From positions 1 through 34,078 of IMG/VR virus record IMGVR_UViG_3300049793_000061: a stretch of DNA of 34,078 bases, one strand, 5' to 3'. The position numbers and the translations under genes were made by a program. This DNA comes from a virus. Under the pieces are notes generated by a model. The model was not told where the DNA came from. It made no database searches and saw only the letters and a list, made by a program, of their open reading frames with translations. Shown here one piece after another: positions 1,952 through 22,981 of the stretch (positions are counted from its first letter, which is position 1; every line of letters starts with the position of its first letter).

Positions 1952-3911
1952 AGGGCACACCGGAGGCTTGCGCGCACCGGACGATGATCTTGCCGATTTC
2001 TTCTTCGAGCCCTTCGCGGACGCAGAGCGAGTACTCATCGTGCGTCCATAGACACATCACAAAGTCCCCGTCCCATCCCCATTTGTACTTGCTGCATAGT
2101 TCCTCGTAGACGTCACAGCCCCAACGCTTGCAGAGGATTGCTCCGCAGCTTTGGATCAGGAAGTTGAGAGCGGAGTGCTCGGATCGGGTGGGTATCTTGC
2201 GTTCGTCGAGGCCGTAGACCCACTTGAACTTATCGACTTGATACGAGAGCCGTTCCTTGAGCTTAGCGAAGCCGTCAATGCGGGTTAGGAAAGCGTCACG
2301 GACCTTCTTGCCTACCTGTTGGAGGGAGCGTTGCTCGCCCCTGTTGTTGATGAAGAACTTGTTGAATAGTTCAACACCCTCAGGTCCTCCGTCGCGGCGG
2401 GCCTTGACCAGACAGTCGAACATGATCTGACCAGCCATCTCGTCCCAGCAGCCATAAATGTACGCATAGATGAAGCGCTTGGAGCCATCCTCACGTATGA
2501 TGGTGTGGAGCTTTTGTCGCAGCGTGGGCTCTTCGTGGTAAGGAGCAACGTCGCGATCCCCTTCCACTAAACCCATGACCTGGGCGTGTAGCCAATGCAC
2601 ATCACCGTCACAGACGATGTCCATGTACTGACCGCCGTCTAGAGGCTTGAGATAGTGCGCCAAGCCGCGTAGTTCGAGGCCGGACATGTCAGCTCCCAAG
2701 AACTTCCATCCTTTGGGAGCGTAGAAGAGTTCGCGGCATTCCGGTCCATACGGGCTCGCCATGTTTGGCACTTGTCCGAGATTGGGCAGGAAGTGTGAGG
2801 CCCGGGACGTGGTGGTCCCCATTGGATTGATGACCCCATGAATACGACCGTCATCTTGCACCGCCGTAAGCCAAGCTTGCTTGCCATCAGCGAGCTGCGA
2901 GAGTCTCTTATCAAGCATGAGATAGCGGTCAATGCCCGCCATTTCCGGAAACTCAGCCACCACGGACTGTAGGACTTCTTCATCGAACTGTGCCTTCCCT
3001 CCGTCTGTGAACTTCTTGGGCTTCCAGCCTCTGTCCCTCAGGACCTTGGCGATGTTGTCCCTAGAGCCAGGATTGAACTCTACAATCTTCAGCTTCGTGT
3101 AGGGCTGACCCTTCACATAGCCGTACCGCTTGTTGTTGACCTTCGGAACGTGCACTGATGCCTCATAGCTGGGCTTCTCTGGCGCATACCAGAACCCAAA
3201 CTGTCTCTTTAGTTCGTCTTCTACGAGCGCCTTCTCACTGATGAGTTCGACGTGTAGCGCTTTGGCCTTCTCGATGTCGAACGGGACACCAGCTTGCTCC
3301 ATTGCGTCGCAGACAATCGCTATCCTATGTTCAAGCTCGATGGCAGCGAGAGAGTACTTGTCAGGGTCCAGGTGATCCCAGAGTGTCAGGTTGGTCTGAG
3401 TGTCCCCAACGCAGTAGTCCTGCATCTCCTGCGTCCATGTGCCCCACACATAGCGCGCTAGGGCCTTAGGATCGGAGATGCCTGCTGCGAGGGCCTCAGC
3501 CATACGCAGCTCTGCATAGTCTCCTTTGTGACAGTCGAGGCGGTAGCCCCAGGCAGCAAGTGAGTGCTTGCCTTGGTACTTGGCGGGAAGCTTGCCGATG
3601 CGGACGAGGTCCCCGTCAGTGTCCTTCACGTTGGGGAACTTCACGCGAGCGATGATCATCGTATCCTTGATCACAGCACCCGCCTTCGGCTCCCAATTGT
3701 GGAGCTTCTTCAGCAGCGCGTTATCGTGTCTTTGAATATTATGACCGATGAGTACGTCGGCCTCGCTAAGCTTGTCGAGTGCAGCTGCGATTTGATCGGG
3801 GCTGTAGCTCCAGCGCTCCTTGGTATCTACATCAATGATTGCTATGCAGTGAACCTTGGTGCTGGTAGCCACGAAGCCATCGCTTTCGCTGTCGTACAGA
3901 AAGCGCTTCAT
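1887..3911 (-). CDS. DNA polymerase, family A, T7 gp5-like
   Basis: Replicative DNA polymerase, 674 aa against about 704 for T7 gp5. The N-terminal 3'-5' exonuclease is intact: D7 and E9 (YDSESDG), N58/D63 (IGHNIQRHD), D170 (YCVGDTQTNL). The polymerase domain has motif A GADMSGLELR (D408), motif B SKRFIYAYIYG (K478, Y482) and motif C WTHDEYS (H624, D625, E626). FNPGSRDNIAKVL aligns with the T7 FNPSSRDHIQKKL segment. The segment between WY (241-242) and that FNP motif is clearly shorter than the T7 thioredoxin-binding insertion as I recall it, so processivity may not use host thioredoxin in the same way. The ATG overlaps the stop of the 36-aa gene upstream (ATGA). Confidence 0.97.
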   Translation of the reverse strand: MKRFLYDSESDGFVATSTKVHCIAIIDVDTKERWSYSPDQIAAALDKLSEADVLIGHNIQRHDNALLKKLHNWEPKAGAVIKDTMIIARVKFPNVKDTDGDLVRIGKLPAKYQGKHSLAAWGYRLDCHKGDYAELRMAEALAAGISDPKALARYVWGTWTQEMQDYCVGDTQTNLTLWDHLDPDKYSLAAIELEHRIAIVCDAMEQAGVPFDIEKAKALHVELISEKALVEDELKRQFGFWYAPEKPSYEASVHVPKVNNKRYGYVKGQPYTKLKIVEFNPGSRDNIAKVLRDRGWKPKKFTDGGKAQFDEEVLQSVVAEFPEMAGIDRYLMLDKRLSQLADGKQAWLTAVQDDGRIHGVINPMGTTTSRASHFLPNLGQVPNMASPYGPECRELFYAPKGWKFLGADMSGLELRGLAHYLKPLDGGQYMDIVCDGDVHWLHAQVMGLVEGDRDVAPYHEEPTLRQKLHTIIREDGSKRFIYAYIYGCWDEMAGQIMFDCLVKARRDGGPEGVELFNKFFINNRGEQRSLQQVGKKVRDAFLTRIDGFAKLKERLSYQVDKFKWVYGLDERKIPTRSEHSALNFLIQSCGAILCKRWGCDVYEELCSKYKWGWDGDFVMCLWTHDEYSLCVREGLEEEIGKIIVRCAQASGVPYGFRGPLDSQAKVGQSWRDTH

Positions 3912-4018
3912 TCGTCGTCAGGTATCTTTCTATTGAGTTCAATGAGAGTGCCATGGATGGCCTCTAGTTCAACAGCGATGGCGAGAAGGATCAGGACGAT
4001 GATTATCTCAAAGAACAT
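3908..4018 (-). CDS. Tiny single-pass membrane protein, 36 aa
   Basis: A 36-residue gene exactly filling the gap before the DNA polymerase: MFFEIIIVLILLAIAVELEA then a polar tail ending KIPDDE. Residues 3-17 form one hydrophobic helix. Both junctions are coupled: its ATG overlaps the upstream TGA (TGATG) and its TGA overlaps the polymerase ATG (ATGA). The role is unknown. Tiny membrane proteins in early phage operons can act in superinfection exclusion or host membrane takeover, but this is only a guess. Confidence 0.72.
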   Translation of the reverse strand: MFFEIIIVLILLAIAVELEAIHGTLIELNRKIPDDE

Positions 4019-4230
4019 CACTTAGCCGCGTCTGAGCCCTTGGCCCAGTCACAGATGACGTACTGACGAAGCTTGGGATCACTGACAACCCAATGGATGC
4101 CGTTACTGTCTTCAACATTCAGAGCGAAGCTCGCAGTCTCGACGACCTTGCAGATGCAGATGTTGCCTTGCTGGTTTGGATAGGCAAGCTTATCACCCAC
4201 CATGATGTCCCTATCGAGCAAGTCCTTCAT
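4018..4230 (-). CDS. Small phage protein, 70 aa, SH3-like pattern
   Basis: Function unknown. The sequence reads MKDLLDRDIMVGDKLAYPNQ, then short beta-strand stretches (ICICKVVETASFALNVED, HWVVSDPKLRQYVICDW). The opening IMVGDKLAYP is typical of small barrel proteins with a KOW/SH3-like fold. The ribosome site AGGAGACTGA lies directly before the ATG. The gene lies between primase-helicase (8 nt downstream of its stop) and the 36-aa membrane peptide. Confidence 0.75.
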   Translation of the reverse strand: MKDLLDRDIMVGDKLAYPNQQGNICICKVVETASFALNVEDSNGIHWVVSDPKLRQYVICDWAKGSDAAK

Positions 4231-5876: not shown

Positions 5877-5988
5877 GGGTGAGCCAGTTGACCCACCAGA
5901 TGGCGGCGAGCGCTGCGCAGTATAGTGAACCTCCTATAAAGGCCACGACCAGCATCAGGGCGCCGAACGCTGCGAGTGCTGTGAGCAT
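5869..5988 (-). CDS. Tiny membrane protein, 39 aa
   Basis: A 39-residue gene between the winged-helix gene and primase-helicase. MLTALAAFGALMLVVAFIGG is a long hydrophobic helix, followed by a second hydrophobic, Trp-rich stretch (LYCAALAAIWWVNWLTRG), so one or two membrane passes. The ATG overlaps the upstream TGA (TGATG), and the stop lies inside the start of the primase gene (GTGGCTGA). Function unknown; the coupled junctions on both sides support it as real. Confidence 0.7.
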   Translation of the reverse strand: MLTALAAFGALMLVVAFIGGSLYCAALAAIWWVNWLTRG

Positions 5989-6254
5989 CAATTGAGCCGC
6001 AGCCGAGTGCTGAGTGTATAGCGACCGTACTCCTTGCCACGCTCGTCCTGCACCATCTGGGTGTGGACATCATGGCCCGCGCGCCTGATCTTCAGGATGC
6101 AGTCGCTGAGGCGGTAGATGCCGTACACGATCATGCTCTCGATCGGCGTGATGGACTTTCCCTTCTCAAGGTGATTGAGGATGACTTTGGCCTGAGGGGG
6201 CAGCTTGAGGTCGTTAGCGAGCGTGGATTTACCAAGGTCCATTACGTCAGACAT
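5988..6254 (-). CDS. Small winged-helix (HTH) phage protein, 88 aa
   Basis: Likely DNA-binding. The core, ILNHLEKGKSITPIESMIVY then GIYRLSDCILKIRRAGHDV, matches the small phage winged-helix family whose members read roughly I-L-x-H-L-x-x-G-x-I-T-x-x-E-A-x-x-x-x-G-x-x-R-L-x-x-x-I-x-x-L-R-x-x-G; EYGRYTL forms the wing strand. A strong ribosome site AAGGAAGTGAC precedes the ATG, and the same string precedes the gene at 8799. It could act as a regulator or recombination accessory factor; its target is unknown. Confidence 0.78.
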   Translation of the reverse strand: MSDVMDLGKSTLANDLKLPPQAKVILNHLEKGKSITPIESMIVYGIYRLSDCILKIRRAGHDVHTQMVQDERGKEYGRYTLSTRLRLN

Positions 6255-12234: not shown

Positions 12235-12261
12235 GTCTTAGGGCTCTTAGGAGTTCTTAAG
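12235..12261 (-). promoter_or_regulatory. Phased CCTAAGAG array upstream of RNA polymerase
   Basis: In minus-strand sense the octamers CTTAAGAA, CCTAAGAG and CCTAAGAC follow one another at 10-bp and 9-bp spacing, 29-55 nt before the RNA polymerase start codon. The same octamers in the sense of transcription fill the leader of the late operon at 21,062-21,341. Spacing of one helical turn suggests protein binding on one DNA face; an RNA-level role is also possible. Confidence 0.55.
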
Positions 12262-12373
12262 AGGGCACTGCTCAGAGGGTGTTCGATCTGAGCGACCTTC
12301 GTGCGAACCTTGGCATGAGTTTCAACTAAGTGTCTGATCTTGTTGGAACTGACTGCCTAAAAGGGGTATATTC

Positions 12374-13862: not shown

Positions 13863-14285
13863 CTACCGCTTGTGGGCTCTAACAATCTGACCAACGATAC
13901 CCTTACCCTTAGCGCTCAAGCGTATCAGGCGGTTCCTGCGGTCCATCACGTCATCAAACTGCTCCACGAGGCCAAAGCCCGCCTCATGGTATCTGTTGGT
14001 TGTGCCCAGGTCAGCTAAGTGCCTCGTCATTAGCGAGGGTGTGACGCCTGCGCGTCTTGCGTACTCAGTGACGTTGAGGCCTTCCTCCGCAGCCACGTGC
14101 AGGAATGCTGTGACGTACTGAAGAGGCATAGTGTCTCGAAGGTTCTTGAACGGCTCAAGAGACCTCATGGTGTTCTGCAGCACGGCCTTCTCTTCAGCCG
14201 TGATGCTCTGTCGATGCGTGCTCATAGCCTTAGCCCCAATACTGCTTTGCTGCTCGCTCGTGTAGCCGCCTCCCAGCGCACTCAT
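13863..14285 (-). CDS. MarR-like winged-helix regulator, candidate lysogeny control protein
   Basis: Probable DNA-binding regulator of 140 aa. The core PLQYVTAFLHVAAEEGLNVT, then EYARRAGVTPSLMTRHLADL, is a MarR-type helix-turn-helix in which GVTPSLMTRHL is the recognition helix region. RNRLIRLSAKGKGIVGQI is the wing and the following helix, matching the R-x-x-x-v-x-L-T-x-x-G pattern of MarR proteins. The ATG at 14285 overlaps the stop of the 40-aa membrane gene (ATGA). It is the only full-length regulator near the integrase, so it is the best candidate for a repressor or lysogeny switch protein; no ligand can be inferred. Confidence 0.83.
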   Translation of the reverse strand: MSALGGGYTSEQQSSIGAKAMSTHRQSITAEEKAVLQNTMRSLEPFKNLRDTMPLQYVTAFLHVAAEEGLNVTEYARRAGVTPSLMTRHLADLGTTNRYHEAGFGLVEQFDDVMDRRNRLIRLSAKGKGIVGQIVRAHKR

Positions 14286-15746: not shown

Positions 15747-16721
15747 TCAGCGTTTCCTCAAGACACCGCCGCGTAGGTAGATGGCAGTCGCGACCTCATC
15801 GGGCGTTATGCCGTACTCCTCCAGCCAGTCCGCGACCTCGTCGGGATGATCCTTGACCAGGGACGCGAGGGACATGTTACAGCGCCCGATAGGCTCTTGA
15901 TCATCGTCCTCAAAGTATCCAGGCAAGCCGCGCTGGTCGTCATAGTCATCAGGATCAATCTCGCCTGGGACGCGCTCAGAGACCAGCTTGGACGCGTCAA
16001 GGGTTACCAAGGCGTCCCTAAGCGTCTCAAGATAGTTGAAGTCTAACGTCTCCCGCTTGGTGTGCTCGTTCATGTAGCCAACGCTGAGGTTAGAGCACTC
16101 GCCTATGATGTCAGTGTAGTTGGCGGTATCAGTGAAGCTCCCGCCGCTATCGGCTCTGTGCGCCATGCCCAGGGCATCAGCGAGGGACGCAGCGAAGGTC
16201 TCAGAGCAGCACCGCCCCTGCCATTGGTGCGTGATGATTGAATGCTTGTCGCGGCGATCAAAGGCCACAGCAAACTCAATGCCGCTTAGGATGTCCGCCC
16301 GGTGTTCAGCAATGAACGCTGATCCCTTGCCGCCGCACTCCTCCGCTCTATGGAAGATGTACAGTCCAGGGCGTTGCTCGCGTATCATCTCCATCATGAG
16401 CCACACGCCAGATGTGCAGTCCGCGCCTAGGCAATTCGATTGCTTGTCGGCTTGGGTGATTAGGCCGTTAGAGACGCGCAAGAGTTGCGAGCCTCCTTGG
16501 GTGTGCACGGTGTCCGTGTGGGATGACCAGAGGACAGGCGCATCACCGATACGCTTGTACAGATTGCCTAGCTCATCCTCTTGCACGCCTAGAGGCTTGA
16601 TGAAGCGTGCAATGAAGTTGCGCTCAGTCTTGGACCATGCGGGACGTCGGAATGCGAGCATGGCGAGGAGTTCTGCTTGGCCTGTAAGCACGGGATAGAC
16701 GGCCTTGTGTGTGCGGCTCAT
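15747..16721 (-). CDS. Zinc metallopeptidase of the M20/M28/M42 clan
   Basis: Probable dinuclear-zinc exopeptidase, 324 aa. All clan MH ligand positions can be assigned in order: H68 and D70 (SSHTDTV), D101 (LGADCTSGVW), E127 and E128 (HRAEECGGKGS), D155 (AVAFDRRD) and H220 (GYMNEHTKRE), with TDIIGECSNLSVGYMNEH typical of the last part of the fold. No signal peptide, so it should act in the cytoplasm. The dimerisation domain appears short or absent. The ATG overlaps the stop of the 567-aa early gene (ATGA). Its substrate is unknown; it could process a phage or host peptide. Confidence 0.85.
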   Translation of the reverse strand: MSRTHKAVYPVLTGQAELLAMLAFRRPAWSKTERNFIARFIKPLGVQEDELGNLYKRIGDAPVLWSSHTDTVHTQGGSQLLRVSNGLITQADKQSNCLGADCTSGVWLMMEMIREQRPGLYIFHRAEECGGKGSAFIAEHRADILSGIEFAVAFDRRDKHSIITHQWQGRCCSETFAASLADALGMAHRADSGGSFTDTANYTDIIGECSNLSVGYMNEHTKRETLDFNYLETLRDALVTLDASKLVSERVPGEIDPDDYDDQRGLPGYFEDDDQEPIGRCNMSLASLVKDHPDEVADWLEEYGITPDEVATAIYLRGGVLRKR

Positions 16722-18421
16722 GCCACTTCCCTACGGCATGAGATACCAAAAGCGCTGCCAATAGCAGTGACGACTAAGCGAAACTTGTCAGAGCGCCAGC
16801 CATTGGCTTGTCCACTGTCATCCGCCCACACAGAAAGGGTGGTAATTCTGACGGCGCTAACCTGATACAGTTTGCCTTTAGTGAATTGTGCGCCGTAGGG
16901 ATAATCCTCCAGACACTCAACCCAGCAACCTACCTCAATGGTGTCAGGAACTACGGCAAGAGGCATTTCCAACTGAGCATCAGTCTTGACGTAAGGGGAC
17001 GCGCGGTTCGGCTTGGCTGCTGGCACCGCATCAGCGTCGCTATCGTCATCCTCTTGTGGCTCATCACCTTTCGCATAGAGCTTGCCGTCAACTTCCACGC
17101 CATTGTCGCTGAAGTAATCCTTAGACCAGCTAGTACCGTCCTCCAGTGTGACCATATCGTCGTGTGCGTAGCACTCTCTATTGCCTTCGCAGATTGAGCC
17201 GTTGTCCTCAAAGTAGTCCCTGGACCACATAGTCCCATCGGCTAATTCAATCATTAAATCGTTGTGGTAGAGACTGCCGTTTCCTTCACATTCAGTTGCG
17301 TCGTTTTCGATTGCGTATTGGCCCCAGCACTGCACGCCCCTGCGCCCGTTGCGGCGTTCAATGATGACCTCTTGCATACCACCGCGCGGGCAACTCTCTT
17401 CCGTATGCTCACAATAGCCGAAAGCTTCATTGTAGCAGTGTTCACAGTATGAGTTGCCGTCATCATCTGACTGGCAATTGTCATCGTCGACGCCATCGCC
17501 GCAATCAGTGCAGCGAATGCTAGAGCCGCTAAGGCCGTTCTGGTTTCCACCGTTGACACCACTACCACCCAGGATCAGATGCTTTCCATCGTCCCTAGCT
17601 GATTGCGAACCATCGATATAGGGACACACAAAGCCGCTGCCCTCTTCAATGCGAAGCATACGTGCGCCGTCAAGGTCTCCAGACACGTATGAAGCGCTTT
17701 CGAGCAAGTCACCTAAGCGGCATTCGTCACCGTAGATACGGCCATAGAGTTTCTTATCTGGCCACACCAGGGCTCGCGCTGTGATGTTTCCATCTCGCTC
17801 TATATAGGCAATTGCGAGGTCGCCAGCTGCGTATATCGTGCAAGGATGCACTGAGCTTTCGAAGTGAGAAGCGGGGTACTGCATACAAGAGTGAGGGCCG
17901 TTCACATAGACGCGCTCAATCTCTTCTGAGGTGTGGGCAAACTGAAGCAAGATGCTATCGCCGTATTGCACAGAGAACTCAGCGGCCATACGCGCGATGG
18001 TTGGCGCATCAAAGACGTGGCCATAGAACTGCGCCAGATACTTGCCGGGCTTGACGCGTGTCTGGATGTCCCCTGCGCCTTTGTTGGCGTCTTGGGTGTA
18101 GGCAATCTTTGCGCCGTCCTCAGTAGAGACGTGGGCGAAGTGATCAGCGGTGAGTGAGTGCGTGGGAAGCTCAGCCCATGGCAAGGGAATATAAGTTCCA
18201 TCGGCGAAGCGTCCGAGTTCCCGGGCTTTCCAGGCATCGCTAGAGAGGCGGCGGGGCTGGCACTTAACTTCATCATAGTACAAATCATAACAGAGACCTT
18301 GACCCGCCAGACGCGCGACCGTGGCTGCATCTGTGCCGTTGTCGTATACAAGCGGCTTGCCCTCGCGATTGAGGACGGGGACAGGTTCGCTTCCAGCTTC
18401 AATGATGAATAGTCCGAACAT
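16718..18421 (-). CDS. Large early protein with Cys cluster and internal duplication, 567 aa
   Basis: Function not recognised. Residues 1-270 form a mixed alpha-beta region with HPCTIYAAGDLAIAYIERDG and KKLYGRIYGDECRLGDLLES. Residues 304-344 hold seven Cys (CTDCGDGVDDDNC, CEHC, GYCEHTEESC), a likely zinc-binding module. Residues 385-450 carry two copies of a unit of about 36 residues (LADGTMWSRDYFEDNG and LEDGTSWSKDYFSDNG). An acidic linker (455-465) leads to a C-terminal SH3-like segment (VGCWVECLEDYPYGAQFTKG). It is the biggest early gene and has its own leader with paired GCCAATCGG boxes. A host-takeover role is plausible by position only. Confidence 0.8.
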   Translation of the reverse strand: MFGLFIIEAGSEPVPVLNREGKPLVYDNGTDAATVARLAGQGLCYDLYYDEVKCQPRRLSSDAWKARELGRFADGTYIPLPWAELPTHSLTADHFAHVSTEDGAKIAYTQDANKGAGDIQTRVKPGKYLAQFYGHVFDAPTIARMAAEFSVQYGDSILLQFAHTSEEIERVYVNGPHSCMQYPASHFESSVHPCTIYAAGDLAIAYIERDGNITARALVWPDKKLYGRIYGDECRLGDLLESASYVSGDLDGARMLRIEEGSGFVCPYIDGSQSARDDGKHLILGGSGVNGGNQNGLSGSSIRCTDCGDGVDDDNCQSDDDGNSYCEHCYNEAFGYCEHTEESCPRGGMQEVIIERRNGRRGVQCWGQYAIENDATECEGNGSLYHNDLMIELADGTMWSRDYFEDNGSICEGNRECYAHDDMVTLEDGTSWSKDYFSDNGVEVDGKLYAKGDEPQEDDDSDADAVPAAKPNRASPYVKTDAQLEMPLAVVPDTIEVGCWVECLEDYPYGAQFTKGKLYQVSAVRITTLSVWADDSGQANGWRSDKFRLVVTAIGSAFGISCRREVA

Positions 18422-18486: not shown

Positions 18487-18696
18487 CTAGCGAGCAACCG
18501 TCATGAGGTCCGGGTAGGCCATAGCCACACGCAACGCTGCGATGACCGCATGAGCCTTGGCTTCAGCTGCGGTGGCGAACACGTTGCCAGACTGTGAGAG
18601 TTTCGAGCCGACCATGCGCCCGCGATCCTTGCGCAGTGTGACCATGGGAATGAAGCCGGTAGCGGTGCGGCGAGCGGCGGGATGGAAGGTGATCAT
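18487..18696 (-). CDS. Small early protein, 69 aa
   Basis: MITFHPAARRTATGFIPMVT opens a basic, beta-rich N-terminal half; a C-terminal Ala-rich helix follows (FATAAEAKAHAVIAALRVAM). Layout similar to the 69-aa integrase neighbour. Independent leader with a GCCAACCC box. Function unknown. Confidence 0.7.
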   Translation of the reverse strand: MITFHPAARRTATGFIPMVTLRKDRGRMVGSKLSQSGNVFATAAEAKAHAVIAALRVAMAYPDLMTVAR

Positions 18697-19235: not shown

Positions 19236-19424
19236 AGACAATGCGCAGACATCGAATACTATCGCAAGGAAATAGCGACTGCGTGTAGTGCATGGCAGGT
19301 ATGCGTCTATAGCATAGTCCCAGCTGGAGTTGATCACTTGTGCTAGGCGCGCCTATGACCCACTAGATATCGTATGCCAACTAGACGGCCCTAGGAAGGC
19401 CTGTGAGTGCCTATGCAATCATTG

Positions 19425-19438
19425 GCTACCATGGTAGC
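19425..19438. repeat. Perfect 14-bp palindrome GCTACCATGGTAGC
   Basis: Perfect dyad in the intergenic control region, about 230 bp upstream of the first left-arm gene. Size and position suit a dimeric repressor operator. It could also be chance, since CCATGG is common. Confidence 0.5.
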
Positions 19439-19456
19439 GGCCATAGGAAACTAGGG

Positions 19457-19486
19457 TGCTCCTGGGTGTTCTGAGGTGCTCTGAGG
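19457..19486 (-). promoter_or_regulatory. Three tandem decamers, relative of the CCTAAGAG array
   Basis: Plus strand TGCTCCTGGG, TGTTCTGAGG, TGCTCTGAGG in exact 10-bp tandem. In minus sense these read CCTCAGAGCA, CCTCAGAACA, CCCAGGAGCA, resembling CCTAAGAG with the same 10-bp period, and they face the early arm. Confidence 0.45.
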
Positions 19487-19562
19487 CTAGCAGCCTTTGC
19501 AAGAGCGAAGCTCCCCACACGGACAGCGACAAACGCACCTAGGATGCCCAAGAGCGCTATTG

Positions 19563-20024: not shown

Positions 20025-20984
20025 TTGCCTTTAGAGACCGCCACCTACCTCACGGACCTCGTCGCCTCCAATCCGGCCCATACTGACGCCCTGTCCCAGG
20101 CCGATAGTCACATGAGGCTCCTCAAGAGCACCCTGAAGGCTACGTTCCCCAATTTCACTTCCGGTTCCCTTGCGTCCACCCAGGCTCAGCTCGATGCTGC
20201 GGTCTCTACGGCCACCGGCGCGAGTCCGATGCGCATTCCCTTGGGCACTGCGGCGCTCCCAGGCCTCACGCCGATTGGTGACACCAACACAGGACTTCTG
20301 AGCCCCGCCGCAGACCAGCTTGCGTTCTCACTCGCTGGCGTTCAGGTGCTGCTCATGGGCGGCTCTGCGCTCGTGACGAGCCTCGGTGTCGCTGCTCCCG
20401 CTATCTTGAGCACTGGAGCGTACTCAGGCGGCACAGGACAGCTTGTTCCCATCGGGTCCACGCTTCTCTGGTGGGATGATGTCCTGCCAACTGAAGGCGG
20501 TTACGCTTGGTGTAACGGCCAGATCATCGCTTCTGCGAACACTGTGTGTCCTGTGCTGCTCGCGCGCTGGGGCACGAGGTTCGGCGGTAACGGCACAACC
20601 ACGATGGGCGTGCCTGATCTGCGGGATACTGTTCCGGTCGGTAAGTCGACCATGGGTGGCGTGGCTTCGCGTGCGCTGCAGACCCTTACGAACACCGTGC
20701 TCGGCACCCTCATCGGCCTCGCTAACAACGTTCTAGTGACGCTCAACCTTCCGGCCTATACGCCGTCTGGCTCTGTGGCTACGACGGACGTGACGGGGTC
20801 AGGCGCAGGCCTTGTAAGGCCGGTTGGATCGAACGTTGGTGTTGGTGGCTCAGCAACAGGCGGCGTCATTGTCAGCCCGACGCTATCTTCAAGCTTTACG
20901 GGCACGGCCCAAGGAGGCACCAGTACTCCTGTGAACAACGTGCAGCCGTCGACGACTTGTAACTACATTTTGAGGCTCGCCTAA
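20025..20984 (+). CDS. Tail fibre protein with phage collar domain
   Basis: Receptor-binding or adhesin-type tail fibre, 319 aa. The start is TTG (20025), chosen because MPLETATYLTDLVASNPAHT, then DALSQADSHMRLLKSTLKAT, is the standard N-terminus of this family, which anchors the fibre. Residues about 140-215 form the tail collar domain (LWWDDV, GYAWCNGQIIASA, WGTRFGGNGTTTMGVPDLRD, TVPVGKSTMGG), and the C-terminus ends TTCNYILRLA, as in many collar proteins. It stands alone between the control region and a terminator, so it is transcribed separately from the virion operon. No good ribosome site is visible, and expression may be low. Confidence 0.9.
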   Translation: MPLETATYLTDLVASNPAHTDALSQADSHMRLLKSTLKATFPNFTSGSLASTQAQLDAAVSTATGASPMRIPLGTAALPGLTPIGDTNTGLLSPAADQLAFSLAGVQVLLMGGSALVTSLGVAAPAILSTGAYSGGTGQLVPIGSTLLWWDDVLPTEGGYAWCNGQIIASANTVCPVLLARWGTRFGGNGTTTMGVPDLRDTVPVGKSTMGGVASRALQTLTNTVLGTLIGLANNVLVTLNLPAYTPSGSVATTDVTGSGAGLVRPVGSNVGVGGSATGGVIVSPTLSSSFTGTAQGGTSTPVNNVQPSTTCNYILRLA

Positions 20985-20992
20985 GAAACGCG

Positions 20993-21019
20993 AGAAACCC
21001 CCGTTTTCATTGGGTTTCT
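20993..21019 (+). terminator. Hairpin AGAAACCC / GGGTTTCT after tail fibre
   Basis: Perfect 8-bp stem with an 11-nt loop, 8 nt after the tail-fibre stop. The tail is poor in T, so it may be a stability hairpin helping the stronger terminator downstream. Confidence 0.4.
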
Positions 21020-21042
21020 AGCATTTCCAGGGACCCCTTTGC

Positions 21043-21064
21043 GCTCGCTCGCGGGCTTCTTCTT
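21043..21064 (+). terminator. Terminator GCTCG-CTCG-CGGGC plus TTCTTCTT
   Basis: Five-bp G+C stem with one G-T pair, 4-nt loop and a T-rich tail. Its sequence closely matches the integrase terminator at 12397-12419 (GCTCGCTC, then GCGGGC, then the T-tract). It separates the tail fibre from the virion operon. Confidence 0.6.
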
Positions 21065-21341
21065 AAGAGTTCTAAAGCTTCTTAAGAGAACCTTCGGTTT
21101 CCGATGATCACTATCCTAAGAGTACCTAAGAGCCTCCCAAGAGCATTAGGATCATCTAGTATAATATTATAATTATAATACTAAGAGAGAATAAGAGTCC
21201 TTATGTGCCTTCCTAAGAGCGCTTCTTCGAAGATCACTTAGGCCTTCCTAAGAAGCGACCAAGAGCAATCAATCAACTTCAATCTGTGTGTCCTCTTCCA
21301 GGACCGCCTAGGTGCGCTTAAGCCCTAAGAACTCTTAAGAG
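21062..21341 (+). promoter_or_regulatory. CCTAAGAG octamer array, leader of the virion operon
   Basis: Twelve octamers of consensus CCTAAGAG, all on the plus strand, start at 21062, 21081, 21115, 21125, 21136, 21180, 21190, 21212, 21248, 21258, 21324 and 21334. Five of the spacings are 10 bp and one is 11 bp, so most copies form helically phased pairs or a triplet. A degenerate copy (CTAAAGCT) at 21072 fills the first gap. The last copy, in the palindrome CTCTTAAGAG (21332-21341), overlaps the ribosome site of the next gene. Not a CRISPR: no uniform spacers. Likely a binding array for a regulator at DNA or RNA level. Confidence 0.6.
21160..21179 (+). promoter_or_regulatory. A+T-rich island with three TATAAT strings
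   Basis: TATAAT occurs at 21160-21165, 21168-21173 and 21174-21179 in an otherwise G+C-rich genome. These match the bacterial sigma-70 -10 element, but no TTGACA-like -35 lies 16-18 bp upstream. It could be an easily melted site for the phage polymerase or an extended host promoter aided by the array. Confidence 0.4.
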
Positions 21342-21346
21342 GCACC

Positions 21347-22981
21347 ATGTCACTCGAACACATCCGCGACCTTGCAAAGTACGGCGTCCTTTGTGACCCC
21401 GATCCCTACGACCTCCCAGACACCGCTTGGTCCTTCGGCCTCAACGTCCGCTTCCGCAACGGCAAGGTCTCTTCAGGCCCAGTGTTCCGCAAGGCCTTCG
21501 AACTCGGCACAGCGAACCCGCGCTACAGCTTCGCCGCCTCCCCAACATCAGGCCTCGACCTTCTCTTCACTGGCTACCTCAACGGCAAGCTCTACAAGTT
21601 CAACGGCACCGAGACGGACTTCACTCTCGCAGGATACACCCCGTCCTCTGCAGAAGCCCAGTGGTCCAACACAAGCCTAGGCAACGTCCTCTACGTCAAT
21701 CGCTCCGACAGGGCTCCTTGGTACCTCAGGACCTCAGACGTAGCCTTCCAGAACCTTGGCGTCATCGGCGGTGCCCCAGCCTCATGGGACTCCACGTACA
21801 CCTGTGGCCTCCTGCGCACCTGTGGCGGCGCTCTCGTAGCGCTCAACGTCACCAAGGGCGCAACGAACTTCCCGACGATGATCAAGACCTCCAGCATCCC
21901 GCTGTCAGGTGTGATCCCCGCTTCGTGGGACTTCTCCCTACCGAACACGCTAGCCACCGAGAACATCCTCGCTGAGATGAAGTCTAGCATCGTAGATGCC
22001 CAGACCCTCGGCCCCCAGCTCGTGATCTATGGCCTCCAAGAAGCATGGATGATGCAGGCCGATGGCTCGCAGCAAGTCTACAACTACCGCAAGCTCCCGT
22101 TCCAGAAGGGCTCGCTGAACGCCAACTGCTCCCTAGAACTCGACGGCAAGCATTACGTCTTCGGTGTCGACGACATCTGGATGCACGACGGAAACTCTGA
22201 AGTCTCCATAGTCGACAAGGCCAACCGGGACTTCATCTTCAGCTCCATCAACCTCTCGAAGAAGAACCGATGCTTCATTCAGCACAATCCACAGCTGAAG
22301 GAAATATCGTTCTGCTACATCTCTGGTGACAGAGGCGTAGGCTTCCTGGGTGAGCCTGACGGCTGCAACAGAGCTGCGGTGTACAACTACACCGACAAGA
22401 CGATGACCTTCGATGACTTGCCCCTGGTGTTCTCAGCGTCCAATGCGAACCTCAGCATCTCAGCGACCTACGCGACCACCACGGCCACCTACGACACCAC
22501 GGGTGGCTCCTACCTAGACCAAGAGGACGGCTTCAAGCGGACCCCAGTATTCGTAGGAACCGCCAGCACCACCTACAGCCTCGCTACTGCCTTGTACGCT
22601 CAGGACCTCTTCGGTCAGGGCTCCACGGTATCGTTCCCGGTTGATACGCACGCCACGCTGGCTAGGGTGCTAGAAAGAGACGGCATCGACCTCGACAGCC
22701 TCAACGCAGACTTGCGTGGCTACAAGACGCTCTCCTCGCTCTATCCGCAGGGACGCCTTGGTGATGGCGCGTCTACTTTGATGTTCTCTGTGGGCTCCTC
22801 GGACTACTCCAACGTGGCTCCTGTGTTCAGTGACTATCAGGCGTTCGATGGTGCAGCCCTCTACAAGCTGGACTTCAACGTCGGTGGCCGCTTCCTCTCG
22901 ATCCACGCCAAGTTCTCCGACTACAAAGAGATGTCCCTGTCAGGCTTCGACCTAGACCTACACGCAACGGGTAATTCCTGA
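21347..22981 (+). CDS. Large tail-associated virion protein, 544 aa
   Basis: Probable structural protein of the tail or tail hub, first gene of the virion operon. It is beta-rich with repeated short strands and W/Y-containing turns (FRFRNGKVSSGPVF-type start, then DLLFTGYLNGKLYKFNG, GKHYVFGVDDIWMHDG, EISFCYISGDRGVGF), suggestive of a beta-propeller or beta-sandwich; no precise family is claimed. The ribosome site AAGAGG lies 5 nt before the ATG. The stop overlaps the next gene (TGATG). Confidence 0.75.
   Translation: MSLEHIRDLAKYGVLCDPDPYDLPDTAWSFGLNVRFRNGKVSSGPVFRKAFELGTANPRYSFAASPTSGLDLLFTGYLNGKLYKFNGTETDFTLAGYTPSSAEAQWSNTSLGNVLYVNRSDRAPWYLRTSDVAFQNLGVIGGAPASWDSTYTCGLLRTCGGALVALNVTKGATNFPTMIKTSSIPLSGVIPASWDFSLPNTLATENILAEMKSSIVDAQTLGPQLVIYGLQEAWMMQADGSQQVYNYRKLPFQKGSLNANCSLELDGKHYVFGVDDIWMHDGNSEVSIVDKANRDFIFSSINLSKKNRCFIQHNPQLKEISFCYISGDRGVGFLGEPDGCNRAAVYNYTDKTMTFDDLPLVFSASNANLSISATYATTTATYDTTGGSYLDQEDGFKRTPVFVGTASTTYSLATALYAQDLFGQGSTVSFPVDTHATLARVLERDGIDLDSLNADLRGYKTLSSLYPQGRLGDGASTLMFSVGSSDYSNVAPVFSDYQAFDGAALYKLDFNVGGRFLSIHAKFSDYKEMSLSGFDLDLHATGNS

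Follow-up and report, generated by a model that had tools for sequence, protein, structure and literature searches.

Phage T7 carries short-repeat arrays, named SRL and SRR, beside its terminal repeats. In the T7 record, 16 of the 22 sense-strand copies of CCTAAAG are located in the first 410 or the last ~800 bp, and the opposite strand has none there. The terminal repeats of T7, T3, gh-1, K1F, SP6, LUZ24 and tf contain pyrimidine-AT-purine units at 10–12-bp steps, with a rhythm of 11 or 12 bp in T7, T3, gh-1, K1F, LUZ24 and tf (z 3.0–4.0) and of 10 bp in SP6 (z 3.4); in the two phages SP6 and K1F, the initial 174–200 bp served as the repeat in place of an annotated extent. LUZ24 and tf (Bruynoghevirus, Krylovvirus) have terminal repeats of 184–186 bp, and their ends are situated where the early and structural operons diverge. 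To our knowledge, the role and working of the repeats at T7-type genome ends are unsettled even in T7, and nothing relevant was found in the literature on phased decamers in phages or on CCTAAAG arrays.

In the window analysed here (the whole 34,078-nucleotide stretch of DNA, from a soil-type bacteriophage), approximately 280 bases of a leader form a real row of short repeats, one DNA turn apart. The leader (20985–21346) is non-coding and is flanked by two open reading frames of the + strand (Table 1). Its + strand holds 10 octamers with at most one mismatch to CCTAAGAG, against only 2 on the - strand (21235 and 21332); 3000 dinucleotide shuffles of the leader gave a mean of 0.54 and a maximum of 5. 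Two looser + copies have 2 mismatches each, so that the twelve same-strand octamers reported in the first-pass annotation comprise ten close copies and two looser ones; its start at 21248 is to be read as 21247. The best 280-bp stretch elsewhere in the window contains 2 octamers, and the motif is not as frequent in coding DNA as it is here. The unit in the window is CYYAAGAG. As a one-strand, non-coding row of imperfect copies of one short unit, the leader array has the make-up of a T7-type terminal short-repeat array. An inverted repeat (TCTTAAGAGTTCT / AGAACTCTTAAGA, at 21061–21076 and 21325–21340) brackets the entire array. For the virion gene, the ribosome site may coincide with the last copy (CTTAAGAGGCACCATG), and this is the most that can be kept of a Shine-Dalgarno explanation; the start codon lies near the last copy only, while ten same-strand copies extend over 280 bp, and such an artefact was rejected. 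A CRISPR was also rejected, since long repeats and fixed-length spacers are absent. With a probability of about 0.5, the array can be regarded as repeat DNA of a genome end (concatemer junction), in a variant form of what T7-group and LUZ24-like podoviruses carry at their linear ends as short-repeat arrays and terminal repeats.

Table 1. Repeat groups, associated elements and neighbouring genes in the window.
Feature	Position	Strand	Remark
Three decamers (CTCTTAAGAACTCCTAAGAGCCCTAAGACC)	12235–12263	-	Just 5' of the gene for the phage RNA polymerase, in the sense orientation of that gene
Second phased array, CTCAGAGCACCTCAGAACACCCAGGAGCAC	19377–19495	-	Early leftward region; strongest 10-bp repeat window of the whole sequence
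Tail-like gene	20025–20984	+	Between the two arrays
Hairpin AGAAACCC...GGGTTTCT	20993–21019	+	Follows the upstream tail-like gene; conserved in L002; probably a terminator
Upstream group: CTTAAGAG (21062), CTTAAGAG (21081), CCTAAGAG (21115), CCTAAGAG (21125), CCCAAGAG (21136)	21062–21143	+	At most 1 mismatch each
Hairpin sequence AACCTTCGGTT	21089–21099	+	Identical 11-mer in T7 terminal repeat (~70–79); core also in T3
AT-rich core within the array	21154–21181		Three TATAAT; candidate phage-RNA-polymerase or host promoter
Middle group: ACTAAGAG (21180), AATAAGAG (21190), CCTAAGAG (21212)	21180–21219	+	Copy at 21190 with 2 mismatches, others at most 1
Third group: CCTAAGAA (21247), ACCAAGAG (21258)	21247–21265	+	Copy at 21258 with 2 mismatches, the other at most 1
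CTGTGTGTCC	21284–21293	+	Kept in the window and both close relatives; weakly resembles TGTGTCCCT, right edge of T7/T3 terminal repeats
Last group: CCTAAGAA (21324), CTTAAGAG (21334)	21324–21341	+	At most 1 mismatch each
Virion structural gene (phrog_3287)	21347–22981	+	Downstream of the array

Measured on the YAAGA core, the spacings between neighbouring copies are 19, 34, 10, 11, 44, 10, 22, 35, 11, 66 and 10 bp. The 10–11 bp step between close neighbours, claimed earlier, is solid. Over the whole array, phase coherence amounts to R = 0.84 at 11.0 bp, with p = 0.002 against random positions (period range 9.9–10.9) and p = 0.046 only when the clusters are kept rigid; in the two closest relatives long-range phase is not significant (p = 0.23 and 0.36). 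Because of the last two results, phase across the full 280 bp is weakly supported, and whole-array helical phase is weak as a conserved property. Helical phasing and binding along one face of the DNA are still plausible, and the short-range step is kept far more widely than the first-pass annotation could show.

The relatives were collected with a portal-protein scan, and their virion genes were then located by genome search. The two closest (G001/L002 and G002/L003, 77–81% identity in the adjacent protein) are the sole relatives keeping the octamer itself. Their genomes look complete, each with a 127-bp terminal overlap, and are collinear with the window; a same-strand array stands in the same place, with 6 and 5 copies (at most one mismatch), respectively, against a shuffle mean of 0.3–0.4. 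In L003, an inserted free-standing endonuclease VII (HNH-type) gene (3796–4182) separates the virion gene from the array. The octamer is absent in relatives at ~65% identity and below and was rejected as a conserved entity. Distant relatives, including prophages of the family in three Bradyrhizobium genomes, have other letters (CCTTAGG, CCTAAAGT) at the same 10-bp rhythm. Many of their leaders show units with this step, for example CCTTAGGATCCTTAAGTTTCCTAAGGTCTCC in L104 and TCCTAAAGTATCCCTACGTCTCCCAAAG in the Bradyrhizobium prophage L160, whose leader contains CCTAAAGT and CCTAAAG itself. Of the positional conservation proposed as a check in the first-pass annotation, close relatives thus show the array and distant ones the rhythm without the octamer. 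The letters are uniform within one array and different between genomes. A generic 18-mer repeat search in the genomes was too noisy for use.

The combined autocorrelation of 15 leaders, chosen by position only with 110 nt as the minimum length (another six fell short of this), reaches z = 11.3 at 10 bp, 8.3 at 9 bp, 5.8 at 11 bp and 3.8 at 20 bp, with troughs at 15–17 bp; the genomes are few and related, and therefore these are not 15 independent tests. WW, SS and TA steps also recur every 10 bp in the leaders. This recurrence, together with Bradyrhizobium as the host of the relatives, would suit a host silencer or wrapping target, in which phased T-A steps and soft DNA are recognised by alphaproteobacterial MucR/Ros, HU or gyrase. 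MucR proteins favour T-A steps, but their sites are AT-rich and dozens of bases apart (PMC5881533). Many early arrays are GC-rich and have no TA, and the strong one-strand bias in the window is unexpected for pure shape recognition; a host target is accordingly considered very improbable.

Two further elements were observed in the leaders of relatives. Among the distant relatives, the phased array is bordered upstream by a GGGGGTAAGGGGG element, possibly the first phased unit, in virion leaders L097, L098, L099, L104, L110, L111, L113, L122 and L160. In leaders L097–L100, L110 and L160, the start codon is separated from the AT-rich core by a hairpin, GAGAAC..GTTCTC (or GAGACC..GGTCCTC-like), with which the virion transcript may begin.

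A second phased array is present in the early region of most relatives examined, ~1.3–2 kb upstream of the virion gene, and is often the strongest of its genome. The statistics of the early arrays are circular, because their windows were picked by lag-10 score; those of the leaders are not. In the early arrays of G003, G008, G022 and G029, GGGTCCC is repeated at 10–11 bp. GGGTC is a preferred T7 primase site, and some early repeats could therefore be priming sites. The decamer cluster before the RNA polymerase gene is present in the genome of L002, degenerate in that of L003 and absent in distant relatives. Beside the early array of the window, a 69-aa ORF (18487–18696, - strand) is conserved in most relatives and has no family match. 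The neighbouring stretch 15747–18421 (- strand) contains a peptidase-like phrog_4191 gene and the gene for a 567-aa protein; absent from all relatives examined, it is an accessory insertion in the early region. In G007, G008, G018, G021 and G009, a tRNA-like sequence (GGCGGAGTGGTTACGC..GGTCTGCAAAACCG, and a serine/leucine-like variant) is located between the integrase and RNA polymerase genes. It lies upstream of the RNA polymerase gene and is probably an attP overlapping a tRNA gene.

The array is regarded as a probable genome end because the terminal repeats of T7-group phages share its type of unit, its location corresponds to the LUZ24-like end site and contigs break nearby; the T7-like replication genes of the phage also agree with this reading. 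Of the 15 family fragment contigs, 10 stop 0.3–3.0 kb before the virion gene is reached; in one clade, the ends of two contigs are no more than ~60 bp apart and fall between two arrays. The contig breaks and the operon layout are circumstantial support for a terminus, which would be held by the divergent region at ~19.3–21.35 kb. The arrays would act in cis on the DNA, with one contact per helical turn, and would position the terminase, concatemer-processing, packaging or end-replication machinery. Several observations count against this assignment. Contigs may also break where strains vary, a tail-like gene separates the two arrays, and the extra small cluster before the RNA polymerase gene is an unlikely genome-end site. 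The spacing of the T7 left array is 13 bp, not 10, the phiKMV terminal repeat has little rhythm, and G021, G003, G030 and G022 possess an early array but no virion-leader array.

The main rival is an operator array, with tandem one-face sites at which the MarR-like protein (13863–14285) or the small winged-helix protein (5988–6254) would bind and, during lysogeny, repress or activate the RNA polymerase gene together with the virion and early operons. The phages look temperate, with an integrase and Bradyrhizobium prophages, and nearly every relative examined encodes the MarR-like protein, which has a MarR fold and a conserved recognition helix. In all three leaders of the window clade the sites point along transcription, and letters that are uniform per array and differ between genomes resemble those of coevolving sites. 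However, the recognition helix is nearly constant although the motif drifts, and MarR proteins usually bind one ~20 bp palindrome, not long direct arrays with a 10-bp step. The same kind of array is also found at the ends of lytic T7-group phages. An operator array seems unlikely, and a genome end is the more likely of the two. A virion-operon regulatory array, as a specific reading, is not the best fit, given similar phased units in the early region of most relatives and in the T7, T3, gh-1, K1F, SP6, LUZ24 and tf terminal repeats.

The AT-rich core of the leader may be a phage promoter, by analogy with phiOL and phiOR beside the end arrays of T7. A T7-like RNA polymerase promoter set was rejected, as the genome offers no other good match to the core, and a promoter scan of the leader revealed no sigma-70 promoter (-35 + -10). 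Phased repeats flank this core (21154–21181), and several relatives likewise have an AT-rich stretch between repeat groups, an arrangement expected of an iteron-type replication origin, where phased direct repeats around an AT-rich unwinding element are bound by a replication protein. Such an origin is very improbable. The window phage carries T7-like replication genes (RNA polymerase, DNA polymerase, primase-helicase, endonuclease I, exonuclease and SSB), and T7-type origins use transcription; the proteins searched, which covered part of the small ORFs, contained nothing initiator-like, and GC-rich sequence prevails in the early arrays. The repeats could also work at the RNA level, once the leader is transcribed, as targets of an RNA-binding or antitermination protein. 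The same-strand bias along transcription agrees with this, as do a leader that folds better than shuffles (z -2.1) and the inverted repeat joining 21061–21076 and 21325–21340. Nothing about RNA evidently calls for a step of one helical turn, though, and the unit is often self-complementary DNA (CCTTAGG) in relatives. The early arrays fit no single RNA motif, and Rfam gave no match at the gathering threshold; an RNA element is likewise very improbable.

The most unusual observation is the gradual change of letters at a constant step, which hints at a reading of phase or shape. It is tentatively suggested, at odds well short of even, that recognition of the arrays depends on their helical phase and on the local shape of the DNA (pyrimidine-AT-purine once per turn) and not on a fixed word; letters drifting between phages while the 10-bp step persists would follow from such recognition. 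If true, T7-group, LUZ24-like and Bradyrhizobium podoviruses would share a general class of end or processing sites that are read by phase. The 10-bp rhythm could also serve as a guide to genome ends as yet unmapped in podovirus contigs. The present family has prophages in culturable Bradyrhizobium, its arrays are plain, and their letters vary while the step is constant. Whether phase or sequence is read, and by which protein, is therefore testable in this family.

Among known systems, the LUZ24/tf group resembles the window in the divergence of early and virion operons and in phased pyrimidine-AT-purine units, and the virion protein and portal of the window have distant homologues there. Unlike in the window, the virion-gene homologue of LUZ24/tf-group Pseudomonas phages lies inside an operon without such a leader, an array at the same gene is absent from LUZ24-like phages, and the virion operon of LUZ24 and tf begins with the terminase small subunit. 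The T7-like Limnohabitans phage YIMV22061 (PQ492660) shares phased arrays and a GGGGGTAGGGGGG element; the arrays stand between the terminase gene and the early genes, at the place of the genome ends in T7. Its letters (CACCAGGCACC), ~11-bp step and T7-type gene order differ from those of the window. Plasmid type II centromeres (parC, bound by ParR) likewise have 10-bp direct repeats near a promoter, with family-specific letters. The arrays of the window are situated at the virion operon and in the early region, and no ParR or ParM was recognised among the proteins searched.

The end-repeat arrays of T7 are the closest known counterpart, which answers the remark in the first-pass annotation that the array was not recognised as a known T7-type promoter or a CRISPR. 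T7 repeats CCTAAAG, with a spacing of 13 bp in its left array, compared with CYYAAGAG at 10–11 bp in the window, where, unlike in T7, one array leads into the virion operon. Direct homology to the T7 end was rejected, the local alignment with the window leader not being significant (23 against 18.8 ± 2.2). The T7 arrays and 160-bp terminal repeat, like the window array, consist of imperfect same-strand C-C-T-A-A-rich copies in non-coding DNA with a one-strand bias, and the core C-Y-H-A-R-G is ~6–7 times denser in the window leader and the T7 terminal repeat than in the respective genomes. CCTTCGGTT and TGTGTCC are common to the T7/T3 terminal repeats and the window, in the same order and orientation. 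In the window clade, as in T7 and T3, TGTGTCC follows close to the right edge, although with 4 occurrences in the window it is not rare alone, which weakens the likeness of CTGTGTGTCC to TGTGTCCCT. CTGTGTGTCC precedes the gene start by some 40–60 bp in the window and both close relatives (in L003, the start of the inserted gene). AACCTTCGGTT, exact in the T7 repeat, occurs once in the window, inside the array, and phage promoters stand close to the T7 arrays as a candidate promoter does within that of the window.
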